Below are positions 2,105 to 20,396 of a stretch of 20,396 nucleotides of DNA, one piece after another. The position numbers and the translations under genes were made by a program. The stretch's first letter is position 1. Each line of letters begins with the position of its first letter. Source of the DNA: a virus. The DNA lies in IMG/VR virus record IMGVR_UViG_3300032271_000480, positions 1-20,396 of that record; one strand, written 5' to 3'. The notes under the pieces were generated by a model, which ran no database searches, was not told the DNA's origin, and saw nothing but the letters and a program-made list of their open reading frames with translations.

Positions 2105-3416
2105 CGACGAGCCTCCCTTCACGCCAGACGAGGCTTTTACGATCCGGGCGCTCGACGCCCTGGCTCCCCAATACTGGGGCATCGAGCCGATGGATCGGCT
2201 CACCGCCCAGACCGCGATCCGGGTGACGGCCATCCTCGCGTGTCTGCGGTTTCTCGCTCAGAGCATCGCCTGCATGCCGCTCGAGCTGCTGCACGTCGGC
2301 GACCGGCGGAAGCGCCCGGCGATCGATCTCCCCTGCTACCCCGTGCTCACCCGCCAGCCGAACGGATGGCAGTCCACCTATTCCTGGCTCGAGCAGATGG
2401 TTTTCCATACGGGGCTCTACGGGAACGGCTATTCGAAGATCGTCCCCGGCGCTCGCGGTTTCTGCTCGCAGCTCGTGCCGCTCCATCCGAGCCGCGTCCT
2501 CGTCAAGCGGATGAGCGACGACACGCTCGAGTACACGTTTACAGACGCGTTCGGCCGGACGGAGTCTCTCTCGCAGGACCAGGTTGTTCACTTCCGCTGG
2601 CTCTCGGATAACGGCTACATCGGGCAGATGCCCGCGGACTTGTGCGGGACGAGCGTCTCGCTCGCGCGGAAGCTCGATGTCGCCGCGTCGGCCTACTGGG
2701 ACAATTCAGCCCGGCCCGACACGGTCCTTGAGACGACCGAGCGGATTCCCGAGGAAGGCATGCAAGCGCTTCGCCAGGGATGGCGGGACGCGTACGGCGG
2801 AGCCCGCAACCGCGGGAAGGTCGCGATCCTCCCGAAGAGCGTCACGGCCCGGACCCTCGACGGCAATTCGATGGAGTCCTCGCAGTACATGCAGCAGCGC
2901 TCCGCGATCGTCTCGGAGATCGCCCGGATCTTCGGCGTCCCCGCGACGCTCATCGGCCATGAGGGCGCGATGAAGTGGAGCACGGTCGAGCAAGAACACC
3001 TTGGCGCGCAAGTGTGGTGCCTGCTCCCGTGGCAGCATCGGATCGAGTCGGCGATCGATGTCTCGATCTTGAGCGCGTACGGGAACGATGTTTACTGCAA
3101 GCTCGACAACCGCGGCCTAATGCGGGCCGACTCCGCGGGCCGCGCGCAGCTCTACCAGGCGCTCTGGTCGATGGGCGCGATCACGCCGAACGAGATTCGC
3201 GACCTCGAGGATCTCCCTCTCCTGGACAACCCGGCCGCTGACGAAACCTACGTGCAGCTCGGTTTCTCGACGCTCTCGGCCGCCGCCGCCCAGGCCCCGC
3301 AACAAGCACCGGCGCCGGTCGAGCCGGTCGCTCCGGCTCCCGATCAATCCAAGACGCTCCCGGCCGACGCGGCCGGACCATTCATCTCCGGAGGCGACGA
3401 TGTCATCCTCGGCTGA
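2016..3416 (+). CDS. Phage portal protein, HK97 family
   Basis: 466 aa from ATG 2016, or 449 aa from the alternative ATG 2067. The dodecameric portal forms the DNA channel at one head vertex, docks the terminase and nucleates head assembly. Family hallmarks seen: AIRVTAILACLRFLAQSIA (residues 67-85), HTGLYGNGYSKI (131-142), the LVPLHPSRV segment, DQVVHFRW, and IARIFGVPATLIG followed by STVEQEHL. The C-terminus is Ala/Pro-rich. The long overlap with terL (89 bases) makes the first start uncertain; GGAAAA at 2005-2010 favours it, and 2067 lacks a clear ribosome site. Cys residues at several positions are unremarkable. Placement between terL and prohead protease is canonical. Confidence 0.95.
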   Translation: MESSRQSADWRSRLRRAMSWGPTGRSQSSSDEPPFTPDEAFTIRALDALAPQYWGIEPMDRLTAQTAIRVTAILACLRFLAQSIACMPLELLHVGDRRKRPAIDLPCYPVLTRQPNGWQSTYSWLEQMVFHTGLYGNGYSKIVPGARGFCSQLVPLHPSRVLVKRMSDDTLEYTFTDAFGRTESLSQDQVVHFRWLSDNGYIGQMPADLCGTSVSLARKLDVAASAYWDNSARPDTVLETTERIPEEGMQALRQGWRDAYGGARNRGKVAILPKSVTARTLDGNSMESSQYMQQRSAIVSEIARIFGVPATLIGHEGAMKWSTVEQEHLGAQVWCLLPWQHRIESAIDVSILSAYGNDVYCKLDNRGLMRADSAGRAQLYQALWSMGAITPNEIRDLEDLPLLDNPAADETYVQLGFSTLSAAAAQAPQQAPAPVEPVAPAPDQSKTLPADAAGPFISGGDDVILG

Positions 3417-4434
3417 ACGTAGATTCCTCACCCTCGGCGAGATGCCGACGAAGCTCCGCGTCTCCCGCCGCAAGGCCGGGGGGATGAAGTTCTCCGGCTA
3501 CGCGGCCCGATACTCGTCCGCCTCGAGCGACCTCGGAGGCTTCCGCGAGATCCTCGCGCCGGGTGCTTTCGACAAGGTTCTCTCAAAGCGGTCGAAGTCC
3601 GATGTCATCCTCGCGTACAACCACAATCCCGACCACCTTCTCGCGCGGACGAGCTCCGGGACGCTGAAGCTCACGAGCGACGAGAAGGGCCTCCGGTTCT
3701 CGGCCGACCCGCCCGAGACCCAGCTCGCGAAAGACATCGGCGAGCTGATCCGTCGCGGCGACCTCACGGGCGCGAGTTTCGCGTTCACGGTCGCGCCGAA
3801 GAATGAAGCCTGGTCGACGGACGAGCGCGGCAACTCCGTCCGGACGATCCGAGAAGTTTCCGAGCTGTTCGACGTGTCGATCGTCACGACCCCGGCCTAC
3901 CCGGCGACCTCGATCGCGATGCGGTCGCTCCAGGCCTGGAAGCAGGCCCGGGCGCTCATGGGCCAGCCGATGGCTCCGGCCGCCGAGGCCGAAGCCGAGG
4001 ACCAGGAGCAGGAGGTCGGCGAGCAGCTCGTCGGGCCGGGCCTCACGATCTCGATCGACTTCGACGACACCTTCTCCGCGGCCCCTGGTCTCTGGCTCTC
4101 GTTCATCGAGGAGGCCTGCGAGGCCGGGAATACAATCATCATGACCAGCCGCCGGGAAGACACTCCCGAGAACCAGGCCCAGATCATGTCGGCCCTGGGC
4201 GACGACGCCGACCTCGCGGCCGTGATCCTCGCCGGGCCGGACTCGACGAAGCGGGACGCGGCGACCGCCGCCGGGTTCACGGTCGACATCTGGATCGACG
4301 ACGACCCGTCGACGGTCGACGGCCCGATCGAGCAGCAGCGGGCGGCATCGATCCGCATCGGCTCCCGCCTGGCGGCCGCTCGTGCGATCGCCGCCCACAA
4401 TCTCCGGAGGATCCGCGATCGTGTCTCCGGCTAA
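3400..4434 (+). CDS. HK97-type prohead protease fused to a HAD-phosphatase-like domain
   Basis: 344 aa, against roughly 180-230 for typical family members. Residues 25-175 form the S78/U35 prohead protease, which cleaves the capsid delta domain during maturation. The candidate triad is H75 (in YNHNPDH), S126 (in GASFAF) and E152 or E155 (in REVSELFDVSIVTTPAYPAT). An acidic Ala/Glu/Gln linker spans about 193-210. Residues 215-305 look like a HAD-superfamily fold: motif I DFDDT (D220, D222, T224), motif II IIMTSR (T249/S250), motif III K284 in STKRDA, motif IV WIDDDP (D300-D302). The HAD catalytic residues look complete. I recall similar HAD proteins as stand-alone phage genes, so fusion here is notable. 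ATG 3400 overlaps the portal end and follows GGAGG (3390-3394). M187 or M191 could serve as an internal start for a free HAD product. The HAD substrate is unknown. Confidence 0.9.
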   Translation: MSSSAERRFLTLGEMPTKLRVSRRKAGGMKFSGYAARYSSASSDLGGFREILAPGAFDKVLSKRSKSDVILAYNHNPDHLLARTSSGTLKLTSDEKGLRFSADPPETQLAKDIGELIRRGDLTGASFAFTVAPKNEAWSTDERGNSVRTIREVSELFDVSIVTTPAYPATSIAMRSLQAWKQARALMGQPMAPAAEAEAEDQEQEVGEQLVGPGLTISIDFDDTFSAAPGLWLSFIEEACEAGNTIIMTSRREDTPENQAQIMSALGDDADLAAVILAGPDSTKRDAATAAGFTVDIWIDDDPSTVDGPIEQQRAASIRIGSRLAAARAIAAHNLRRIRDRVSG

Positions 4435-4588
4435 ATGCAAACACTGTGGCGAGCGGATGCGCGTCGACTCCTCGAGGAGATGCGGCGAGCTCCAGCTCCA
4501 GTACCTCGAGTGCGTCCGTTGCGCGGCCCGGCGGAGCCGGGTCGTCGACCGCTCGACCGTGTGGCCGAAACCGAGGAGCAAGTCATGA
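4421..4588 (+). CDS. Small zinc-ribbon protein
   Basis: 55 aa from GTG 4421, chosen because GGAGG lies just upstream (4407-4411) and the frame then opens straight into a metal-binding motif. Residues show CKHC near the N-terminus and CVRC about 22 residues later, with a basic, Leu/Tyr-containing stretch between (RVDSSRRCGELQLQYLEC). This is the layout of a treble-clef or zinc-ribbon domain and recalls Ogr/Delta-type late activators and NrdR-like ribbons. A nucleic-acid-binding role is therefore plausible but unproven. The C-terminus is basic. It overlaps the end of the prohead protease gene by 14 bases and ends in an ATGA overlap with the next gene. Confidence 0.7.
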   Translation: MSPAKCKHCGERMRVDSSRRCGELQLQYLECVRCAARRSRVVDRSTVWPKPRSKS

Positions 4589-4959
4589 GCGTATCGGCCG
4601 CCGTCATATCCGCCCGAGATCTGCCGACGCTCGAGGCAAAAGTCCGCGCGTTCGTCGCGGTCGCCATCGGTGACGCGAGGGACGGCCTCACGATCGCCGA
4701 GCTCTCGGAGCTGACGATCGCGCTCCTCCGGCTCGTGATGGACGCTCTCGACAACATCCCCGCCGACGGCGAGCAGAAGAAGGCCTGGGCGCTCCAGGCC
4801 GTCGCCGACTTGTTCGACGCGGTGGCGGACTCGTGCGTCCCGCTCCTCGCTCGCCCGATCTGGTTCCTCCTTCGGCCGATGGTCCGCCAGCTCGTCCTAG
4901 CGGCCGCCTCCGGCGCAATCGAGCAACTTCTCCCCCTGGTACGGATGGCAACCCGATGA
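4585..4959 (+). CDS. Hypothetical protein, mostly helical, accessory cluster
   Basis: 124 aa from ATG 4585, preceded by GAGGAG at 4573-4578 and sharing ATGA with the zinc-ribbon stop. A longer frame opening at 4435 would overlap the zinc-ribbon gene and is Arg/Pro-rich, so it is rejected. The protein looks all-alpha: Leu/Ala heptads through TIAELSELTIALLRLVMDAL, then a more hydrophobic C-terminal half (PLLARPIWFLLRPMVRQLVL). It may lie on or in a membrane, but no clean transmembrane helix is obvious. No family recognised. It is translationally coupled to a membrane protein gene downstream. Confidence 0.75.
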   Translation: MSVSAAVISARDLPTLEAKVRAFVAVAIGDARDGLTIAELSELTIALLRLVMDALDNIPADGEQKKAWALQAVADLFDAVADSCVPLLARPIWFLLRPMVRQLVLAAASGAIEQLLPLVRMATR

Positions 4960-5219
4960 CAATCGCTCTCCTCTTCGCGGCGGCCGCCGCCGCCGTCTAC
5001 CTCTGGCCGACGATGCCGAAGGCCCCGGTCACGGTCAAGCCGCTCGAGGTCGCTCCGCCGCTCGTGACGTTCACGAAGGCCCCGACCTATCGGTCGGCGA
5101 TCGAGTCGCTCGCGTACGTCCGGACGCGGCTCATCAATACCGAGAACCTCACCGAAGCGGCGAAGTCCGCGGTCGACACGCTCACGCTCGCGCTCGTCGC
5201 CGGGTCCGACAAGGAGTAA
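4956..5219 (+). CDS. Small membrane-anchored protein
   Basis: 87 aa from ATG 4956, which overlaps the preceding stop as ATGA. An N-terminal hydrophobic segment (residues 2-17, IALLFAAAAAAVYLW) would act as a signal anchor. It is followed by a Pro/Val-rich linker (PKAPVTVKPLEVAPP) and a soluble helical tail of about 45 residues, probably on the outer side of the membrane. A single N-terminal helix with a short soluble domain resembles spanins and pinholin-like proteins in outline only; no motif proves that. No family recognised. An in-frame upstream extension is possible but has the Arg/Pro look of non-coding frames. Confidence 0.75.
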   Translation: MTIALLFAAAAAAVYLWPTMPKAPVTVKPLEVAPPLVTFTKAPTYRSAIESLAYVRTRLINTENLTEAAKSAVDTLTLALVAGSDKE

Positions 5220-5222
5220 CCC

Positions 5223-5675
5223 ATGCGCCGCGATCTCATCGCCGCCGCCCTGGTCGTCGCCTCCGTCTCGGCCTTGGCCATCTCCGCCCCGGCCCCGGCA
5301 CCGACCCCGGCTCCGCCCCATCCGGGGGCGCTTGAGCTGCGAGGGAAGTTCGTCGGCCCCGACGCGGCCTCCGACGCGGCGACGTTCTCGGCCTTGTGCG
5401 ACGAGCTCGCCGCGGTGATCGAGTTCGACTCCATGCAACCGACGCCCCGCCTGAAGACCGGCGCGAGCATCGAGGATCTCCGCGTCGCCGCCCGAGAGGC
5501 CCGGATGAAGGGGGTCTCGCTCGGAGCCCGTCAGCCGCGCGTGCGAGACGCGGTGAAGGAGTTCCTCGACGAGAAGGCCGGGGTCTCCGGCGGTCCCCTT
5601 ACACCGTCCCAGCGGTCCGCCTGGGCGGCAGCGTTCCGCGAGATCGGGAGGGCCGCCGCCGATGCCGCGCGATGA
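5223..5675 (+). CDS. Exported or membrane-anchored hypothetical protein
   Basis: 150 aa. It starts with a classic signal-peptide layout: MRRD, a hydrophobic core LIAAALVVASVSALAIS, then an Ala/Pro spacer (APAPAPTPAPPHP) that may be a flexible linker or follow a signal peptidase site. The mature part begins near ALELRGKFVGPDAASDAATF and is a compact helical domain with conserved-looking blocks (TPRLKTG, RVAAREARMKG, GARQPRVRDAV). I recall similar proteins from planctomycete phage regions but no function. It begins three bases after the previous stop and overlaps the papain-like peptidase by 14 bases, so the two are probably co-translated. Confidence 0.8.
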   Translation: MRRDLIAAALVVASVSALAISAPAPAPTPAPPHPGALELRGKFVGPDAASDAATFSALCDELAAVIEFDSMQPTPRLKTGASIEDLRVAAREARMKGVSLGARQPRVRDAVKEFLDEKAGVSGGPLTPSQRSAWAAAFREIGRAAADAAR

Positions 5676-6783
5676 GTTCGACGCCAGGCTGAACCGGGTC
5701 GCCTTCGTGGCGGCCGCCACGGTCTTCGGTTTCTGGTTCTGGTACTTCGGCCTGCACTACATCGACACGGCCTTCGTCCAGGCCGCGAGGAACTACGGCT
5801 ACACCCCCGACCCGGCCGGGACGAAGGAGTTCCTCGCCGAGCTCGACCAGCCGCTCTTTCGCAACGCTGGCGCCGAGGTAATTGCAAACGCGAAGGGCCG
5901 CGACGCGTACCTCTATCGCATCGCCGACAAGGCGCACCAAGCGGTTTACGGAACGCCCTACGGCCCGTGGGATCAAGGCCAGATCGGGACGTGTGTTTCG
6001 TTCGGCTGGGGCATGGGGTCCTACGTCGGCCAGTGCGTCGAGTGGTCGACCGGCGAGCTCCCCGCTCCGCCGAAGATCGTCGCTACCGAACCGATCTACG
6101 CGGGAAGCCGGACGGCGGGCCGGATGCCTCCTGTCTCCTTCGCTGGATTCAGTGACGGGAGTTTCGGAGCGGCCGCCGCGCGGTGGGTATCCGGCCAGTG
6201 CAAAGATAAGACGGTCGGCGGGATCCTGTTTCGCCAGAAGTACGGCGACGGCGAGCTCGACCTCACCACCTATTCCGTCCCGAAGTCGAAACAATGGGGC
6301 GCGTACGGATGCCCGCGTCCGCTGGCGCTCGAGGCGAATAAACACCTCGCGCGGGCGGTCGCCTTGTGCGAGACATGGGAAGGCCTCACGGCCGCGCTCG
6401 AAAGCGGCTACTGCGTCCCGGTCTGCTCGAACATCGGTTTCGCGAGCGGCGACCGCGACGCGGACGGATTCCTTCGAAGCGCCGGGAGCTGGGGTCACTG
6501 TATGGTCGCCATCTCGGTGAAGTACGCGGCGAACAGCGGCAAGAACCAGGAGCCGCCGATGAGGAACCCGCGCGACGGAGTGCTGATCATGAATAGCTGG
6601 GGACCGTCCTGGGTGAAGGGCGGCAAGCATCCGGCCGATCAGCCCGACGGGAGTTTCTGGATCACGCGGGCGGACGCCGAGAAAATTCTTCGACAGTCCG
6701 ACTCGTTCGTGATCGGTGGGGTCGGAGGCTTCGCGTATCGTGATATTCACAATGGAAACTGGATGGCAACCAATGAACAGTAG
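5662..6783 (+). CDS. Membrane-anchored papain-like (C1A) cysteine peptidase
   Basis: 373 aa. An N-terminal transmembrane segment (about residues 13-32, FVAAATVFGFWFWYFG) anchors a C1-type peptidase domain. QGQIGTCVSF (105-114) aligns without gaps to the papain QGSCGSCWAF block, giving oxyanion-hole Q105 and nucleophile C111. SWGHCMVAI supplies H279, and LIMNSWGPSW supplies N311 followed by the invariant SWG. The spacing Cys-His-Asn (168 and 32 residues) suits the family with an insert before His. Extra Cys residues (125, 180, 217, 236, 251, 255, 280) might form disulfides, in keeping with an extracytoplasmic location. No propeptide is obvious. GGGAGG precedes ATG 5662. Papain-like proteases are uncommon in phage structural regions. 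Possible jobs are envelope or wall protein cleavage at lysis, exclusion, or virion protein processing; none is proven. Confidence 0.88.
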   Translation: MPRDEFDARLNRVAFVAAATVFGFWFWYFGLHYIDTAFVQAARNYGYTPDPAGTKEFLAELDQPLFRNAGAEVIANAKGRDAYLYRIADKAHQAVYGTPYGPWDQGQIGTCVSFGWGMGSYVGQCVEWSTGELPAPPKIVATEPIYAGSRTAGRMPPVSFAGFSDGSFGAAAARWVSGQCKDKTVGGILFRQKYGDGELDLTTYSVPKSKQWGAYGCPRPLALEANKHLARAVALCETWEGLTAALESGYCVPVCSNIGFASGDRDADGFLRSAGSWGHCMVAISVKYAANSGKNQEPPMRNPRDGVLIMNSWGPSWVKGGKHPADQPDGSFWITRADAEKILRQSDSFVIGGVGGFAYRDIHNGNWMATNEQ

Positions 6784-7018
6784 AACGCTCGCAATCGCGG
6801 CCGTGTGCCTTTGCCTAGGGATGTACTTCGCCCGCCCGGCCCCGGAGCCGCCGCGTCCCGATCGGCCCGTCCTGTCGGCGATCGCCCGCCTGGCGAAGTT
6901 GGGGCTCTGGATCATGCTCGTCGGCGAGTCGGCCCCGGCCGAGAAGCAGACGCTCGCGTATCACGCTCACGTAGACGCGGACGGACATCGGATCCTCGAG
7001 CACGGGGAAGGATGGTAA
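6773..7018 (+). CDS. Small membrane protein, accessory cluster
   Basis: 81 aa from ATG 6773, inside the end of the peptidase gene, with GGATGG at 6761-6766 as ribosome site. An N-terminal hydrophobic helix (residues 5-18, TLAIAAVCLCLGMYFA) is followed by a Pro-rich turn and a second amphipathic or hydrophobic segment (VLSAIARLAKLGLWIMLVGE), then a hydrophilic tail ending in HGEGW. Two hydrophobic stretches in so short a protein would fit a class II holin, but this is a guess from topology only. No family recognised. The GTG at 6716 gives a longer frame but lies deep in the peptidase gene. Confidence 0.7.
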   Translation: MNSRTLAIAAVCLCLGMYFARPAPEPPRPDRPVLSAIARLAKLGLWIMLVGESAPAEKQTLAYHAHVDADGHRILEHGEGW

Positions 7019-7020
7019 TC

Positions 7021-7158
7021 ATGTGGGGCTGGATCCTCGGACTCCTCGCGTCCCTCTCGGCCGACCCGGCGGCCATCGACCGCGAGACTCCTCGAGCTGC
7101 GGCGGCGGTCGCCTACGCGTACGCGGCGCTCGCCGAGGATCCCGCGCAGGATCGGTAG
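7021..7158 (+). CDS. Very small exported or membrane peptide
   Basis: 45 aa from ATG 7021, two bases after the previous stop, with AAGGA at 7008-7012 as ribosome site. The first 16 residues (MWGWILGLLASLSADP) look like a short signal or anchor, followed by an Ala-rich helix and an acidic end. A start at ATG 7012 would add three residues but has poorer spacing. It closes the accessory cluster; a real intergenic gap follows. No function can be given. Confidence 0.6.
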   Translation: MWGWILGLLASLSADPAAIDRETPRAAAAVAYAYAALAEDPAQDR

Positions 7159-7159
7159 C

Positions 7160-7192
7160 GTACTTTCAAAGTACTTACACCGACCGCGGTCG
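7160..7192. promoter_or_regulatory. Two adjacent perfect palindromes upstream of the capsid gene
   Basis: GTACTTTCAAAGTAC (7160-7174) has 7-base arms around a single C, and CGACCGCGGTCG (7181-7192) is a perfect 12-base palindrome. They lie six bases apart in one of the few true gaps of the window, about 75-105 bases before the capsid start. They could be operator sites, or hairpins in the message that end or stabilise the upstream transcript. The first lacks a following T-run, so it is a poor intrinsic terminator. Confidence 0.45.
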
Positions 7193-7264
7193 ATTCAATC
7201 GCCCGGCCCATTCGTAGAAAGTGTGACGCGTAATCGTTCACGCAACCCCGAAGGGAATTCTCTC

Positions 7265-8482
7265 ATGTCGACCAGCCGTCGCCGCCTGCTCCAGGACGAA
7301 GCCGCCAAGCTCGCCAATCAGATCGAAGAGCTCCGCGCTCTGGCTCCGAAGGACGACGCCGAAGCGGCGACGATCGCCGAGCGGCTCGACGCCGCCTCGA
7401 AGCGTAGCGAGCAGATCCTCCCCGAGCTCGACCGCGAGAACGCGCTCGACGCGCGGCTGAAGGCTCTCCGCTCGACCGTCACCGACGCCTACGAGCACCG
7501 GGACGCCCTGGTCCGCGGCGAGGCCCCGACGGTCGAGACCGCCGAGGCGGCCGCCGTCCGCGGCTTCGGCAGTCGGAAGGAAGCCCATCAAGTCGGCCTC
7601 GCTCTCCGGAGCCTGTTCCGTGGCGAGACCCGCGCGATGGGCGAGTCCTCGACCGCCTACGACGGCAAGGGCTCGGAGTACGTTGTCGTCCAGCTCTACA
7701 ACGCGGTGATCAACATCCTGAAATATCAGTCGGTCGCGTTCCAGGTCGCCAACGTCGTCGAGACGAACAGCAACCGGATCACCTTCCCGAAGGTCGGCGA
7801 GATCACTGCGACCCCGATCAGCGAGAACACCGACACGACCGACGTCGATGTCTCGACGAGCGGCGCGACCTGCAACGTCCTCGACTGGCGGTCGAGCGTC
7901 GCGGTGTCGAATTCCCTCATCGAGGACTCCCCGGTCGACGTTGCCGGTCTCGTGGCGAATCGTCTCGCCTACGGCTACGCGAAGAGCATCGACAAGGCCT
8001 GGCTCCAGGGCTACTCCTCGGGCGGGATCACGATCGGCGGCCTGTTCGCGGCTCTCGATTCCGGTAACGTCGTGACGGTCGCGAAGACCGCCGCGACGAC
8101 CGTCGGAAACTTCGCCGATGTCGTGGGCAAGATCGACCCGTACGCGATCAACCCGAGCTGGGTCGTCGGTACGCTCGGTTGGGCCGAGGTGATGAAGGTC
8201 TCCGCGACGCTTCTGAACGCGAACATCGTCGACGGAACCGCGGCGAGCCTCTGGGGCGCTCCGGTTCGCAAGGCATACAACATGCCCGCGAACGTTTACG
8301 CGATGTACGGCGACTTCGGATTCTCGTCGCAGATCGCAGTGAAGCCGAACGGCCTCCAGATCACGGCCGCCCGCGAGCTGCTGATCAAGAAGAACGCGAC
8401 CCTGTTCGTGGGTATCCAGCGGTTCGGCATCCTGAACAGCTCGCCGGAGTTCGCCGCCGCCCTGAACAAGGCCACGGTCTAA
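7265..8482 (+). CDS. Major capsid protein, HK97 fold, with N-terminal delta-like scaffold region
   Basis: 405 aa. It builds the icosahedral shell. Residues 1-75 are charged coiled-coil helices (KLANQIEELRAL and ARLKALRSTV heptads) like the HK97 delta domain, which acts as a scaffold and is removed by the prohead protease; cleavage is expected around residues 100-135, before the shell domain. The shell part begins near SSTAYDGKGSEYVVVQLYNAVI and contains typical blocks: ILKYQSVAFQVANVVET, ITFPKV, IDKAWLQGYSSGG, and the C-terminal LIKKNATLFVGIQRFG. ATG 7265 is chosen over GTG 7223 because AAGGGAA (7252-7258) sits upstream and the extra 14 residues look non-coding. A spacer with palindromes lies upstream and a terminator downstream, so it may be separately transcribed at high level. 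Confidence 0.95.
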   Translation: MSTSRRRLLQDEAAKLANQIEELRALAPKDDAEAATIAERLDAASKRSEQILPELDRENALDARLKALRSTVTDAYEHRDALVRGEAPTVETAEAAAVRGFGSRKEAHQVGLALRSLFRGETRAMGESSTAYDGKGSEYVVVQLYNAVINILKYQSVAFQVANVVETNSNRITFPKVGEITATPISENTDTTDVDVSTSGATCNVLDWRSSVAVSNSLIEDSPVDVAGLVANRLAYGYAKSIDKAWLQGYSSGGITIGGLFAALDSGNVVTVAKTAATTVGNFADVVGKIDPYAINPSWVVGTLGWAEVMKVSATLLNANIVDGTAASLWGAPVRKAYNMPANVYAMYGDFGFSSQIAVKPNGLQITAARELLIKKNATLFVGIQRFGILNSSPEFAAALNKATV

Positions 8483-8502
8483 CATCGACGAAGGGACAAC
8501 AA

Positions 8503-8545
8503 GAGCGGCCGGGTCGGCATACCGGCCCGGCCGCTCGTCTTTCCT
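8503..8545 (+). terminator. Hairpin terminator after the capsid gene
   Basis: A 15-base stem (8503-8517 with 8522-8536; one G-T pair, otherwise perfect) closes a 4-base CATA loop and is followed by GTCTTTCCT, a weak T-rich run. The stem is very G/C-rich. It lies 20 bases after the capsid stop, the only such structure I see in the window, and would let the capsid message end or be partly read through to the downstream genes. Confidence 0.75.
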
Positions 8546-8734
8546 ATGATCCGCCTCCGCCTTCTGTTTCAGTATCGGGGCTATCGGAAGGGCGAAGTCA
8601 TTCAGGCGACGCCCGGCCTGGCGGCGATCCTCGTGAATCAAGGCATCGCGGTCGAGGACACTCAGTCGGAGATCTCGGTGAAGGCGGAGCGGTCCGTAGC
8701 GGCTCAGGTGAACGCCAGAACGGCCGCACAGTAA
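8546..8734 (+). CDS. Small protein following the capsid gene
   Basis: 62 aa from ATG 8546, immediately after the terminator tail, so a usual ribosome site is missing unless CTTTC/GTC-type sequence is tolerated; expression may depend on read-through. The N-terminal half, with YRGYRKGEVI and a GLAAILVNQGIAV block, resembles the small phage proteins of the form xGxYxxGExxxxxxxxAxxLVxxGxA that often follow the major capsid gene. The C-terminus is polar. Function is unknown; a minor head or connector-associated part is plausible from position. Confidence 0.65.
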   Translation: MIRLRLLFQYRGYRKGEVIQATPGLAAILVNQGIAVEDTQSEISVKAERSVAAQVNARTAAQ

Positions 8735-8746
8735 CAGGAGGGGTCG

Positions 8747-9409
8747 ATGGTCTACCCGTACCTCTATCCCGTCCAGATGGCCTACGGGGTCCCGTCCCCG
8801 CGGCATCCGGTCTCTACGGTCCCGATCACTGCCCCGACGCTCGAGCCGGTCTCGCTCGACGACGCGAAGGCCCAGCTCCGGATCCTGAAAGACTTCACCG
8901 ACGACGACTCCTTCGTCGCCGGGCTCGTGGCGACCGGCCGCCGCGTCGTCGAGCGTCGCCTCGGGATCACGCTCATGGCGACCCAGTACCGGGCGACCTT
9001 CGCGGACCCGCTCGACCTCCTGTCGAACCGTCACGAGAGCAACTGGTGGGGCTGGAGCGACACGCTCGAGCTCCCCTACGGTCCGCTCCTGGTCGACGGC
9101 TCGCATCCTGTCGCGATCACGGCCGGGGGCGTGACGCTCGACCCGTCGGCCTACACAGTCGACGCCGACAGCCGACCGGGCCGCGTCCGCCTTGCAACCC
9201 CCGGCAATAACTCCCAAATGGTCGTTACCTACTGGGCCGGGTACAGCTCGGCCGCCCTGGTTCCTCCGACGATCAAGTCCGCGATCCTGCTCCTCGTCGG
9301 CCACTACTGGCTCCATCGCGAGAGCGTCGTCACCGGCACGATCTCCCAGGAGCTCGATCACGGGCTCGACATGCTCCTCGCGTCCGAGGCCATTACGGGG
9401 ATCTACTAA
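8747..9409 (+). CDS. Head-tail connector protein, HK97 gp6-like
   Basis: 220 aa. It forms the ring under the portal that links head to tail. Residues 36-70 (SLDDAKAQLRI...DDDSFVAGLVATGRRVVERRLG) match the helical block of gp6-like connectors, and TLELPYGPLL plus a DPSAYTVDADSRPGRVRL stretch match the middle part. The last 45 residues, with PPTIKSAILLLVGHYWLHRE, are the family's C-terminal helices. The first 30 residues are a Tyr/Pro-rich extension. A strong AGGAGG lies at 8736-8741. It shares one base with the next gene. Confidence 0.9.
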   Translation: MVYPYLYPVQMAYGVPSPRHPVSTVPITAPTLEPVSLDDAKAQLRILKDFTDDDSFVAGLVATGRRVVERRLGITLMATQYRATFADPLDLLSNRHESNWWGWSDTLELPYGPLLVDGSHPVAITAGGVTLDPSAYTVDADSRPGRVRLATPGNNSQMVVTYWAGYSSAALVPPTIKSAILLLVGHYWLHRESVVTGTISQELDHGLDMLLASEAITGIY

Positions 9410-9738
9410 TGCTCGAGGCCGGGCTCCTTCAGGAGATGGTCGTCGTCGAGGCTGCGGTCGAAAGCCGGAACAGCCTGGGCGAGACCTCGCTCGCCTGGGT
9501 CCAGTTCGCGAAACGCTGGGCGATGGTCCAGGCCGTTTCCTATCACGAGCAGGAGCGGCGGAAGCAGATCGGCGGCATGGGCTCGCATACCGTGCGGATG
9601 CGCTACGTGCCGGGCCTCACCGGAAAGATGCGGATCCGCTGGGCCAGTCGCGGAAATCGGATCATGTACATCTCCTCGGTCGTCGAGAAGGGTCGCCGCG
9701 AGGAGCACGAGCTCACCGTCGACGAGCAACAAACATGA
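9409..9738 (+). CDS. Phage head closure / head-tail adaptor protein
   Basis: 109 aa, in the range of the head-tail joining family (SPP1 gp16-like). It plugs the filled head and offers the docking surface for the tail. The family pattern is visible: an N-terminal block with ESRNSLGETSLAWVQFAKRWAMVQ, then a beta-rich RMRYVPGLTGKMRIRW and NRIMYISSVVEKGRR, ending with a strand of the type hELTV. Start ATG 9409 overlaps the connector stop by one base. The gene ends in an ATGA overlap with the next. Confidence 0.88.
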   Translation: MLEAGLLQEMVVVEAAVESRNSLGETSLAWVQFAKRWAMVQAVSYHEQERRKQIGGMGSHTVRMRYVPGLTGKMRIRWASRGNRIMYISSVVEKGRREEHELTVDEQQT

Positions 9739-17773: not shown

Positions 17774-18145
17774 ATGGCAGCGTTTACCCAAACCCCGGCC
17801 GACATCTCGATTACGTGCGTCCAGGGGGACGAGCTCGCGATCGCCATCGACTGCCATCAATCGCTCGTCGGGTACACGCTCTCGGCCGTCGTTTACAACC
17901 AGGTCTTGTCGAGCTCGGCCGGATCGATTGGAGGAGGCGGGACGTACACCGTGGGCGACACGGCCGCGACGTTCACGATCGCCGACATCTCCCGCTCCGC
18001 TGGAACCGTGAAACTCTCGCTCACCGAAACTCAGACCGCCGCCCTGTCGCCGTCCGGCAAATACAGATGGTATTTCCGCTGGCAGGACGCGGCGGGCTAC
18101 ACCAAGTCGATCTTGGCGGGAGCGTTCACGGTGAGCATCCCATGA
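17774..18145 (+). CDS. Baseplate/fibre base protein (BppU-type N-terminal domain-like)
   Basis: 123 aa. It is a beta-sandwich-like protein, starting with a strand pattern seen in upper baseplate proteins and fibre adaptors: [17 protein letters not shown], then a [11 protein letters not shown] strand, a [29 protein letters not shown] hairpin pattern (residues 63-91, given here in part), and [12 protein letters not shown] followed by a closing strand [11 protein letters not shown]. This matches the common phage domain that describes intrinsic limits of a value (VxGDTxxxxxxxxxxG...L...Qt..L.pG.Y.Wdl) in BppU-like proteins. It probably attaches the fibre to the tail tip; the fibre gene starts within its stop codon. 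Confidence 0.75.
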
Positions 18146-20396
18146 GCAACGTCTCCGCCGTCGTCATCTCGCAGTCCAACCCGACGGTAACGACGACGGG
18201 CGGGAGCGTTACCTACGTCACGACGAGCAACGGAGCCGGGATCTCGATCGCCGCGGTGAGCGGCGACACGATCAGCGTCTCGGTGAGCGCGACGCAAACC
18301 CTCACCCCGGCGACGACGAGCTCCCTCGGGGGCGTGATCGTCGGCTCGGGGATCTCCGTCGCCTCCGACGGGACCATCTCGGCAAGCTCGTCCTACGCGC
18401 TCCCGGCGGCGACGACGAGCTCCCTCGGGGGCGTGATTGTCGGCTCTGGGATCTCCGTCGCCTCCGACGGTACCATTTCGGCGAGCTCGTCCTACACGCT
18501 CCCGGCGGCGACCAGCTCGACCCGCGGCGGTGTGGTAATTGGATCGGGGATCCTGGTATCGGCCGGGACGATCTCCGCAACGGCCTCGAGCGTCGGGGCC
18601 GCGGCCGCCAGTCACTCGCACGCGATCTCCGACGTTACGGGCCTACAGTCGGCGCTCGACGGCAAGCAGGCCTCCGGGACCTTTGCGACGCTGGTGAGCG
18701 GCCTCGTGCCGTCCTCGCAGCTCCCGTCGTACGTCGACGACGTGCTCGAGTACGCGGCGATCGCAAACTTCCCGTCGACCGGCGAGACCGGGAAAATATA
18801 CGTCGCCACGGGTACGGGAAAGATTTACCGCTGGAGCGGCTCGACCTACATCGAGATCTCGCCGTCGCCAGGCTCCACCGACAGCGTCGCCGAGGGCTCG
18901 TCGAATCTCTATTACACGACGGCCAGGGCGGCCGCGGCGGCCCCGGTCCAGTCGGTCGCCGGTCGGACGGGCTCCGTCACGATCGCCGCGTCCGATGTCT
19001 CCGGTCTGCCGACCGCTGGGACCGGGAGCTCGAACTACTGCGCTGGGAATGATTCAAGGCTTTCCGACTCGCGCAGCCCGAGCGGGTCTGCGGGCGGGTC
19101 GCTCTCCGGAACGTACCCGAACCCGACACTCGCGGCGACGACCGTAACGGCCGGGTCGTACGGGTCGGCCTCGTCCGTTGGCACGTTCACTGTTGGAGCA
19201 GATGGCCGATTGACTGCGGCCGGGTCGTCGTCAATCGCGATCTCGTCCGGCGCGGTCTCTGGCCTGGCGGCAATCGCGACCAGCGGATCCGCGAGCGACC
19301 TCTCGGCCGGAACCGTCGCGGTTGCTCGGATCCCGACCGGCACGAGCTCGAGCACGGTATGCGTCGGGAACGATTCGCGGCTCTCGGACTCGCGAAGCCC
19401 GAGCGGATCCGCAGGCGGGGCGCTCGCCGGAACGTTTCCAAACCCGACGCTCGCGGCGACTACCGTCACGGCTGGCTCCTACGGCTCGGCATCGTCCGTC
19501 GGCACGTTCACGGTTGGGTCCGATGGTCGCCTGACCGCGGCAGGGTCTACGGCCATCGCCATTTCCGCGAGCGCGGTAAGCGGGCTTGCCGCGTCGGCCA
19601 CGACGGACACGACAAACGCTGGCAACATCAGTTCGGGAACACTTGCCACGGCCCGGCTCGCCACTGGCGCGGCCTCGGCATCGACCTACCTACGCGGCGA
19701 CGGACAGTGGGCAACCGTGTCGGCCAGCACGCCAGACCCTTATGAGCTTGGAACGTACCCGCTCATCACGATCTCGGCGCAGCCATCGGCCGCCTCGATC
19801 CCAGTCGGATCAAGTGCGACGTTTTCGGTGAGTGCCACAGCCACGCTTTCGGCAACAATCTCTTACCAGTGGCAGCAGTCAACGAATTCTGGAGCAACGT
19901 GGTCAAGTATTAGCGGGGCAACTTCGTCGTCCTACACGATTTCAAGCGCGCAATCGTCCGCAAGTGGTTATCAATATCGCTGCCAGTTGACGGCTAACCT
20001 ATCCGTTATCAATTCCTCTTCCGCTACGCTGACCGTTCAAAGTGCGTTTACTGCCACTGCCGTCCTGCTTACCAGCGGCAGTAGCTGGTACAACGTACCC
20101 GCCGGTGCGACAACGATGAAGGCATGGGCGATTGGCGCGGGAGGTGGCCGTGCGGTAAACGACAGCGGCGGTGCTGGCGGCTGTGCGTATAAGACATGGA
20201 GCGTATCTGGCGGTCAAGCTGTGTTGTACGCGGTCGGGACTATTTCCGCCGCCACTAACGGCACCGGAGGAAGTACCACTGTTACTTTTAGCGGCACTAC
20301 AATTTCAGGTAATGGCGGTTCATGTTCAACTGCTGGGTATAACGGAGCCACTGGCCTCTATAGCAATGGCGGCTCGTACTCCGGTGGCGATGGTGG
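18142..20396 (+). CDS. Long modular tail fibre / receptor-binding protein (3' end beyond window)
   Basis: At least 751 aa, open at the window end. ATG 18142 overlaps the previous stop (ATGA). The N-terminal part holds three 33-residue repeats (from about residue 57) of the form [20 protein letters not shown]. Next come the fibre motif [19 protein letters not shown] (from 158), a [20 protein letters not shown] block (from 198) followed by [15 protein letters not shown], then an LYYTTARAA segment. Two 107-residue repeats follow with [22 protein letters not shown] and [16 protein letters not shown]. An Ig-like domain (about 540-634; YQWQQS and YRCQL) and a Gly-rich tip (from about 648; [18 protein letters not shown]) close the visible part. 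All are known phage fibre modules. The tip region is less G/C-biased. It should bind the host surface. Confidence 0.92.
18310..18540 (+). repeat. 99-base tandem repeats in the fibre gene
   Basis: The block starting CGACGACGAGCTCCCTCGGG occurs at 18310-18321 onward and again 99 bases later, nearly identical over the full unit; a third, degenerate copy follows another 99 bases on. The period is 33 codons, so changes in copy number would keep the frame and vary shaft length. Confidence 0.85.
19048..19660 (+). repeat. 321-base tandem repeat in the fibre gene
   Basis: Two copies, starting at 19048 and 19369, encode 107-residue units that share [33 protein letters not shown] and DGRLTAAG. The first two-thirds is highly similar as DNA, the last third has drifted. 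The exact period of 321 keeps the frame. Confidence 0.85.

Follow-up and report, generated by a model that had tools for sequence, protein, structure and literature searches.

Gene content of the locus

The window, by which we mean the whole stretch of DNA analyzed here, is the 20,396-base virus record IMGVR_UViG_3300032271_000480 of IMG/VR, which was handled as a fragment. Its genes come in the order TerS, TerL, portal, S78 prohead protease (3400-4434, + strand), seven consecutive + strand frames that we call A to G, the gene of an HK97-type major capsid protein (7265-8482, + strand; the start is at 7265 in the gene calls and at 7223 in the longest open reading frame), and then head-tail and tail genes. 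An earlier note on this DNA had pointed out that the seven frames split the usual protease-capsid pair, and had proposed that they form an envelope-directed unit built around a papain-like protease and serving in lysis, exclusion, or at the host surface. The frames are indeed placed between the two genes. We describe below a unit of six of them, B to G (4585-7158), that is conserved in order and exchanged as a block, and that we read as a lysis module of phages of Planctomycetota with a probability of about 0.6.

All genes of the unit are on the + strand. B (4585-4959; 124 amino acids, aa) opens the block and has a moderately hydrophobic C-terminal half. C (4956-5219; 87 aa) has an N-terminal membrane segment according to its hydropathy, and D (5223-5675; 150 aa), the constant partner of E, combines a signal peptide or anchor with a proline-rich linker and a helical domain. 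E (5662-6783; 373 aa) is a predicted papain-like cysteine protease with a putative N-terminal membrane anchor and the site residues Gln105, Cys111, His279, and Asn311. F (6773-7018, the start being read from the sequence; 81 aa) carries an N-terminal membrane segment and a conserved C-terminal DGxxxxxHxxGW motif, while G (7021-7158; 45 aa) is the short form of a secreted protein, made of an N-terminal hydrophobic stretch and PRAAAAVAYAYAAL. The remaining frame, A (4421-4588, + strand), starts with GTG and encodes a small zinc-ribbon protein (CxxC...CxxC), with weak zinc-ribbon matches that lie below the cut-off.

The genes B to G form a translationally coupled cassette. The junctions measure -14 nt (protease/A), -4 (A/B), -4 (B/C), +3 (C/D), -14 (D/E), -11 (E/F), and +2 (F/G), and junctions of this kind are also found in relatives, where overlaps are seen for B/C in 14 of 14 loci, for B/D in 56 of 59, and for D/E in 73 of 86. 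The tight coupling and the zinc ribbon of A noticed earlier are thus both confirmed, whereas the claim of N-terminal hydrophobic segments holds for part of the genes. With a Kyte-Doolittle mean threshold of 1.6, C, D, E, and F of the window exceed the threshold and B (maximum 1.44) and G (maximum 1.39) fall below it, so that G, which had been counted among the hydrophobic ones, drops out. The result for C is weak when taken alone because these proteins are rich in alanine and 25% of shuffled C sequences exceed the threshold too.

The GC content of the cassette region (around 65-70%), the alanine-rich proteins, and a G of only 45 aa are what one would expect if the cluster were made of chance neighbors or over-called frames. 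However, the ratio of nonsynonymous to synonymous polymorphism (pN/pS, computed against the related locus L132) is well below 1 for each gene tested, between 0.33 and 0.55 for B, C, D, E, and G (0.35 for B), which indicates purifying selection even on the short G, and the block recurs in the same order in other contigs. These two observations rule out a chance cluster, to which we leave a negligible probability.

Conservation, placement, and exchange of the block

A scan of IMG/VR viral contigs with E returned 94 stretches encoding relatives, and 80 loci were retained from them. The genes usually run in the order B-(C)-D-E-F-(G). Some redundancy remains in the counts that follow, which are not fully independent: the window and L002 are nearly the same virus, and one Blastopirellula locus appears twice, as L084 and G027. 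The order is also stable in an independent scan with the portal, which found seven relatives at 75-100% identity. B, D, and E follow the protease in all six whose contigs reach that far (one of them, L131, stops inside E), and the contig of the seventh, L135, stops inside the protease.

The block does not always stand where it does in the window. Classified by their neighbors, 28 of 86 loci have it between protease and capsid, 39 after the tail genes, and two before TerS, and 17 are unclassed. The post-tail copies, as in G005 and L014, lie between tail genes and an integrase, a placement that is not found in the window's own group. This is a usual site of lysis genes. On a tree of E with 56 rows, at least four changes of the protease-capsid label are required, also when trust is limited to well-supported branches. 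The distances of D, B, and F track those of E (Mantel r of 0.85, 0.62, and 0.74, respectively, with 0 of 2000 permutations reaching each value).

Two pairs of contigs delimit what is exchanged. In L013 the block lies on the protease side of the capsid gene and in L014 between tail genes and integrase, and the DNA they have in common runs only from the start of B to 43 nt beyond the stop of G, in two pieces at 76% and 87%. The left edge is weakly tested by this pair because no more than 131 nt precede B in L013. A better test comes from L045, where the block precedes TerS, and L054, where it follows the tail genes: only positions 747-3518 of L045 are common to both, starting 3 nt ahead of B. 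Since DNA similarity is limited to the block in both pairs, the unit of exchange is B to G. Gene A is outside the matched DNA, and it adjoins the protease in L045 and L066 although the cassette is elsewhere in these contigs. This rules out A as part of the unit: it is linked to the prohead protease and belongs to the capsid side. The unit proposed in the earlier note (4421-7158) therefore had a wrong left limit, and is corrected to 4585-7158, while its description as an envelope-directed unit around a papain-like protease gains from the conserved order and the exchange as a block.

The position next to the capsid gene could suggest a role in the virion: E and its partners might be packaged with the particle and breach the envelope on infection, or they might process capsid proteins. 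Such a role would fit the placement of the block between prohead protease and capsid, which is seen in the window and in 27 other loci. Yet the block is elsewhere in at least 41 of the 86 loci, membrane anchors and export segments are ill-suited to a virion part, and a dedicated S78 prohead protease is already there, which makes a virion or entry role very unlikely. As for E being itself the capsid-maturation protease, this is ruled out by the presence of the S78 enzyme, the membrane anchor, and the frequent placement of the block away from the capsid gene.

Gene E is a putative papain-fold protease

The window's E is not recognized by Pfam (no match at an E-value of 1 or below), PHROGs, or NCBIfam. 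The name of papain-like protease had been given to it by eye, and fold and site now bear it out. An AlphaFold model built from an alignment of 19 E proteins has a mean confidence (pLDDT) of 87, and its best solved structure is xylellain (Foldseek E-value 3.9e-9; VIA Z 22.3, root-mean-square deviation 3.0, 243 aligned residues). The match spans residues 34-355, at about 15% identity, and cathepsins rank next with Z of around 17-20. The E profile also matches cathepsin V at the part holding the active-site His and Asn (E-value 0.025). In the 94 E proteins that exceed 250 aa, Gln105, Cys111, and His279 are present in all 94 and Asn311 in 91. The three deviating sequences (from G416, G326, and G404; loci L126, L127, and L128), which are among the most distant prophage copies, have Gln in place of Asn311 and retain the Gln, Cys, and His as well as the SW motif. 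In the model, residues 3-42 are mostly one long helix, which is best read as a membrane anchor. Modeled fold and complete catalytic site (Gln-Cys-His-Asn) thus identify E as a predicted papain-fold protease, though not as a formal MEROPS C1A entry. It has the same fold and order of catalytic residues as papain-like (C1) proteases such as xylellain and cathepsin B, and differs from them by its low identity, its N-terminal membrane anchor, its setting in a phage operon, and its escape from the family databases.

The matches of E among predicted viral structures include several C1 peptidases from uncultured phages, besides proteins that carry the names peptidoglycan binding-like, N-acetylmuramidase, and Lysin A. 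They raise the possibility that E is an ordinary endolysin of papain fold, which would cut the stem peptides or bridges of peptidoglycan, the rest of the cassette being unrecognized holin and spanin genes. Such an endolysin would be the more cautious version of a lysis role, and its probability is part of the one we give to lysis. A weak Peptidase_C39_2 match in one of the 19 E proteins goes in the same direction. Against it, we saw no peptidoglycan-binding domain in E, the nearest solved folds, xylellain and cathepsin B, are proteases that cut proteins, and to our knowledge a thioredoxin partner is not usual in endolysin systems. A precedent exists in the literature of PubMed Central (PMC): the N5 domain of mycobacteriophage endolysins (LysA) is called a papain-family peptidase (PMC3314691). 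These LysA proteins are multidomain, joining the peptidase to amidase or glycosidase and wall-binding parts, whereas E stands alone and would be anchored. On balance, we regard a papain-fold endolysin as a possible but tentative explanation.

A second comparison is with Cwp84 of Clostridioides difficile, which shares the papain fold with E (Z 17.6) and whose entry is titled as a surface layer associated protein. It is a precedent for papain-fold proteases acting at a protein coat, although it differs from E in being a cellular enzyme with a lectin-like domain and not a phage lysis protein.

Partner genes

D adjoins E in 86 loci. It was counted only within 400 nt of E, and its alignment was limited to proteins shorter than 300 aa (n = 85), because the iterated D profile also matched S78 protease genes in contigs of the protease-capsid type. 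Its AlphaFold model (pLDDT 83) gave no informative fold match in a structure search. The B family was found in 75 loci and F in 76. C is a separate gene in 14 loci, and where it is not, D usually has a longer N-terminus, the counterpart of C in most relatives. B may have a holin-like role. The D protein of prophage G416 has a lipobox-like LPGC, and D or G proteins of prophages G416 and G326 look like lipoproteins by eye.

G is the most variable partner. A thioredoxin domain was found with Pfam in four of the six prophage G or next-gene proteins tested (E-values of 5.5e-7 in Blastopirellula marina, L084; 1.6e-7 in G360; 8.1e-6 in L083; and 2e-6 in G326), with no such match in those of G416 and G221. 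Phage copies of G, read by eye, mostly end in a cluster of cysteines. The 45-aa form of the window has neither cysteine nor thioredoxin domain.

Many relatives have an additional membrane protein of 75-86 aa of the Transgly_assoc family (GlsB/YeaQ-like) between E and F or between F and G (for example L139:7374-7598, - strand, and L055:10259-10483), which is absent from the window. The cassettes thus hold several small membrane proteins (B, C, F, and the Transgly_assoc-like one), none of which matched a holin family in Pfam or PHROGs. The small membrane neighbors of E in prophages received no PHROG name, and a neighbor of E in G404 gave a very weak Rz-like match (E-value 0.019).

Search for conventional lysis genes

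No family of holin, endolysin, or spanin was found with Pfam among the 19 other proteins of the window (8 families found), in line with the earlier note. We extended the search to three larger genomes with terminal direct repeats: G419 (32.3 kb, repeat of 141 bp), which is of the window's own kind, G005 (42.7 kb, 127 bp), and G026 (41.8 kb, 131 bp at 99%). They were taken as complete because of these repeats. Pfam gave no endolysin, holin, or spanin family in G419 (40 proteins, 24 families), in G026 (55 proteins, 12 families), or among 25 of the 27 families found in G005 (50 proteins). The G419 scan was made on proteins other than B, D, E, F, and G of the cassette, the terminase fragment, portal, protease, and capsid (nine called proteins), and other than TerS, the rest of TerL, and the tape measure, left aside for their position or a piece border. 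That of G026 similarly covered proteins other than TerL, portal, protease-capsid, tape measure, and one gene at a piece border. The families found concern packaging, capsid, tail, recombination, replication, regulation, and domains of unknown function, and the sole one of possible relevance to lysis is Transgly_assoc, in the small membrane gene within the cassette. No PHROG named for lysis was present among the best 25 of 46 families in G005 and the best 25 of 63 in G419. Across records, Amidase_2 was found in none of 27 (one of them a cellular genome), Phage_lysozyme in none of 29, and Peptidase_M15_4 in none of 29 (four of them cellular genomes). A standard lysis cassette elsewhere in the genome, together with scattered occurrence of the genes, had been named as the finding that would count against the unit. 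It was looked for and not found, and none of the three genomes showed such a cassette among the proteins and families covered.

Upstream of a RusA gene, G419 and G005 share two small genes, one for a secreted protein of 98 aa and one for a two-helix protein of 47 aa (L138:3434-3727 and L138:3183-3323, both on the - strand), which we did not find in G026. They are candidates for additional envelope genes.

Compared with a lambda-type cassette of holin, endolysin, and spanin genes, the block is also a small contiguous operon of membrane or exported proteins around one hydrolase, and stands after the tail genes in 39 of 86 loci. Unlike it, the block shows no known family of holin, spanin, or peptidoglycan hydrolase, is frequently found between the protease and capsid genes, and is exchanged as one piece.

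The strongest rival outside lysis is superinfection exclusion or remodeling of the host surface, in which the anchored protease would trim surface proteins or phage receptors on lysogens or infected cells and block the entry of rivals or the re-adsorption of progeny. The grouping of envelope-directed proteins around a protease would suit it, as would temperate phages that carry an integrase. Exclusion genes are, however, usually sporadic and separately expressed, whereas the cassette is within the structural operon and present in six of the six nearest relatives examined. Such a role would moreover leave G419, G005, and G026 without a visible lysis gene, and we consider it unlikely.

Hosts and distribution

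Cellular relatives of E were found in a metagenome-assembled genome (MAG) of Planctomycetaceae, in B. marina DSM 3645, in a MAG of Gemmataceae, in a further MAG, and in a MAG titled Proteobacteria. A profile search with E matched 12 of 392 genomes of Planctomycetota and 1 of 398 in the phylum of the Proteobacteria-titled MAG, the latter being the seed itself; each sample includes the seed genome of its search. Cellular copies thus belong to planctomycetes. B. marina and related prophages have B, a C-like gene, D, E, an F-like gene, and G, with the terminase downstream.

We found no match to E in 50,697 phage records or 72,556 plasmids, and none to D in the same phage records. By comparison, the portal matches 1311 of these records. 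Therefore, the module is confined to phages that are unrepresented in that collection.

One copy of E, in G388 (L130, around 7095-9551 of the reversed stretch), lies among what appear to be ordinary host genes and not phage genes. It is preceded by a lipoprotein-like gene and followed by a short thioredoxin-like frame, and is perhaps domesticated or decayed. A setting of this kind would fit a non-lysis role such as exclusion.

A putative lysis module

Taken together, we interpret B to G as a module that serves lysis in temperate, siphophage-like phages of Planctomycetota, which encode these genes within the structural operon. At a probability of about 0.6, lysis ranks first, above exclusion and host-surface roles. 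Of the three functions suggested in the earlier note for its seven-gene unit, it is the one favored here, and the proposal itself holds for a conserved mobile unit, shortened by gene A and accompanied by no conventional lysis family in the three genomes with terminal repeats as far as scanned. The best reading of the cutting enzyme is a tethered papain-like peptidase with, in many copies, a thioredoxin or cysteine-rich partner.

The proteins are presumably made late, since they are encoded within the structural operon. The anchored ones would sit on the periplasmic face, and B, the N-termini of C or D, F, and the Transgly_assoc protein where present could breach or depolarize the inner membrane. 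E would then cut the wall in place of an endolysin, either in a disulfide-stabilized protein layer or at the peptide cross-links of peptidoglycan. D may be a dedicated partner of E (chaperone, inhibitor, or anchor), and G, as a thioredoxin or cysteine-rich protein, might keep catalytic or substrate thiols reduced. The G of the window lacks the cysteine part, and therefore the redox step would be optional or otherwise supplied here. N-terminal anchors that hold a hydrolase in the periplasm, with possible thiol control, are known from the SAR (signal-arrest-release) endolysins, the muramidases P1 Lyz and that of phage 21. E may work like them as far as the anchor goes, but it is not a muramidase.

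The two forms of target, peptidoglycan and protein wall, divide most of the probability of lysis, and both fit our data. In the protein-wall form, the anchored papain-like enzyme and a periplasmic thioredoxin or cysteine-rich helper would dismantle a disulfide-linked protein layer of planctomycetes, an idea that we hold as possible, with slightly more reserve than for the papain-fold endolysin. Among older studies, one reports a protein sacculus with disulfide bonds for Rhodopirellula (PMC2754498) and another a proteinaceous wall resistant to sodium dodecyl sulfate (PMC3422733). Later work shows lysozyme-sensitive peptidoglycan in planctomycetes (PMC4432640). A protease with a thioredoxin helper would suit a protein sacculus, and the N5 domains offer a precedent for peptidoglycan.

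Several points weigh against a lysis role. No component is confidently a holin or a spanin, B was not detected in the group of G026 and L068-L078, and the sole viral G tested, that of L022, has no Pfam thioredoxin. A protease alone may not suffice, because of the lysozyme-sensitive peptidoglycan just cited. The copy of E among host genes in G388 hints at other uses, and lysis might in fact be due to the 98-aa and 47-aa proteins or to other small proteins encoded elsewhere in the genomes. The negatives in G005 (25 of 27 Pfam families, 25 of 46 PHROGs) and G419 (25 of 63 PHROGs) apply to these subsets, the gene finder was home-made and has gaps, and the window is only a fragment. Finally, the module is known from sequences and models only, with no cultured member.

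Phage lysis or envelope modules are known as a kind. In titles and abstract starts of the open-licence PMC literature, we found nothing on lysis by planctomycete phages or on a stand-alone papain-like lysis protein of phages, nor this composition and its exchange as a block. If the lysis reading is right, phage lysis would gain a papain-type enzyme that stands alone, next to the endolysin domains of mycobacteriophages. The load-bearing layer of the planctomycete envelope is debated between the disulfide-bonded protein sacculus and peptidoglycan, as far as the sources above indicate. A protease module exchanged as a block points to a layer that needs to be broken and offers a direct test of it; in the protein-wall form, these phages would exit through a protein wall. 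The module may also serve as a marker for finding phages of planctomycetes.

Additional observations

The S78 prohead protease of the window has a C-terminal HAD-like extension (4018-4434), named by eye, with an IDFDDT motif at residue 219 and a match to phrog_4256 over residues 208-330 (E-value 6e-15). The motif IDFD[DQ]T is present in 9 of the 16 protease genes checked, and it is unusual for a prohead protease to carry a phosphatase-like domain.

G005, a phage of the post-tail type, has a 611-aa frame (38244-40079, from L088 18244 to L089 79) that by eye resembles a prohead protease fused to a capsid protein. The same genome encodes a homolog of the DNA polymerase III beta-clamp (L088:11371-12483, as located by eye in the list of genes). 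At another site it codes for a protein that has a LexA DNA-binding domain.

In the window, the scan of the tail genes gave one weak Ig_3 match (E-value 8.5e-4), reported for the set and not under a named protein, and a long repetitive frame resembling a tail fiber (18142-20394) runs off the end of the window.

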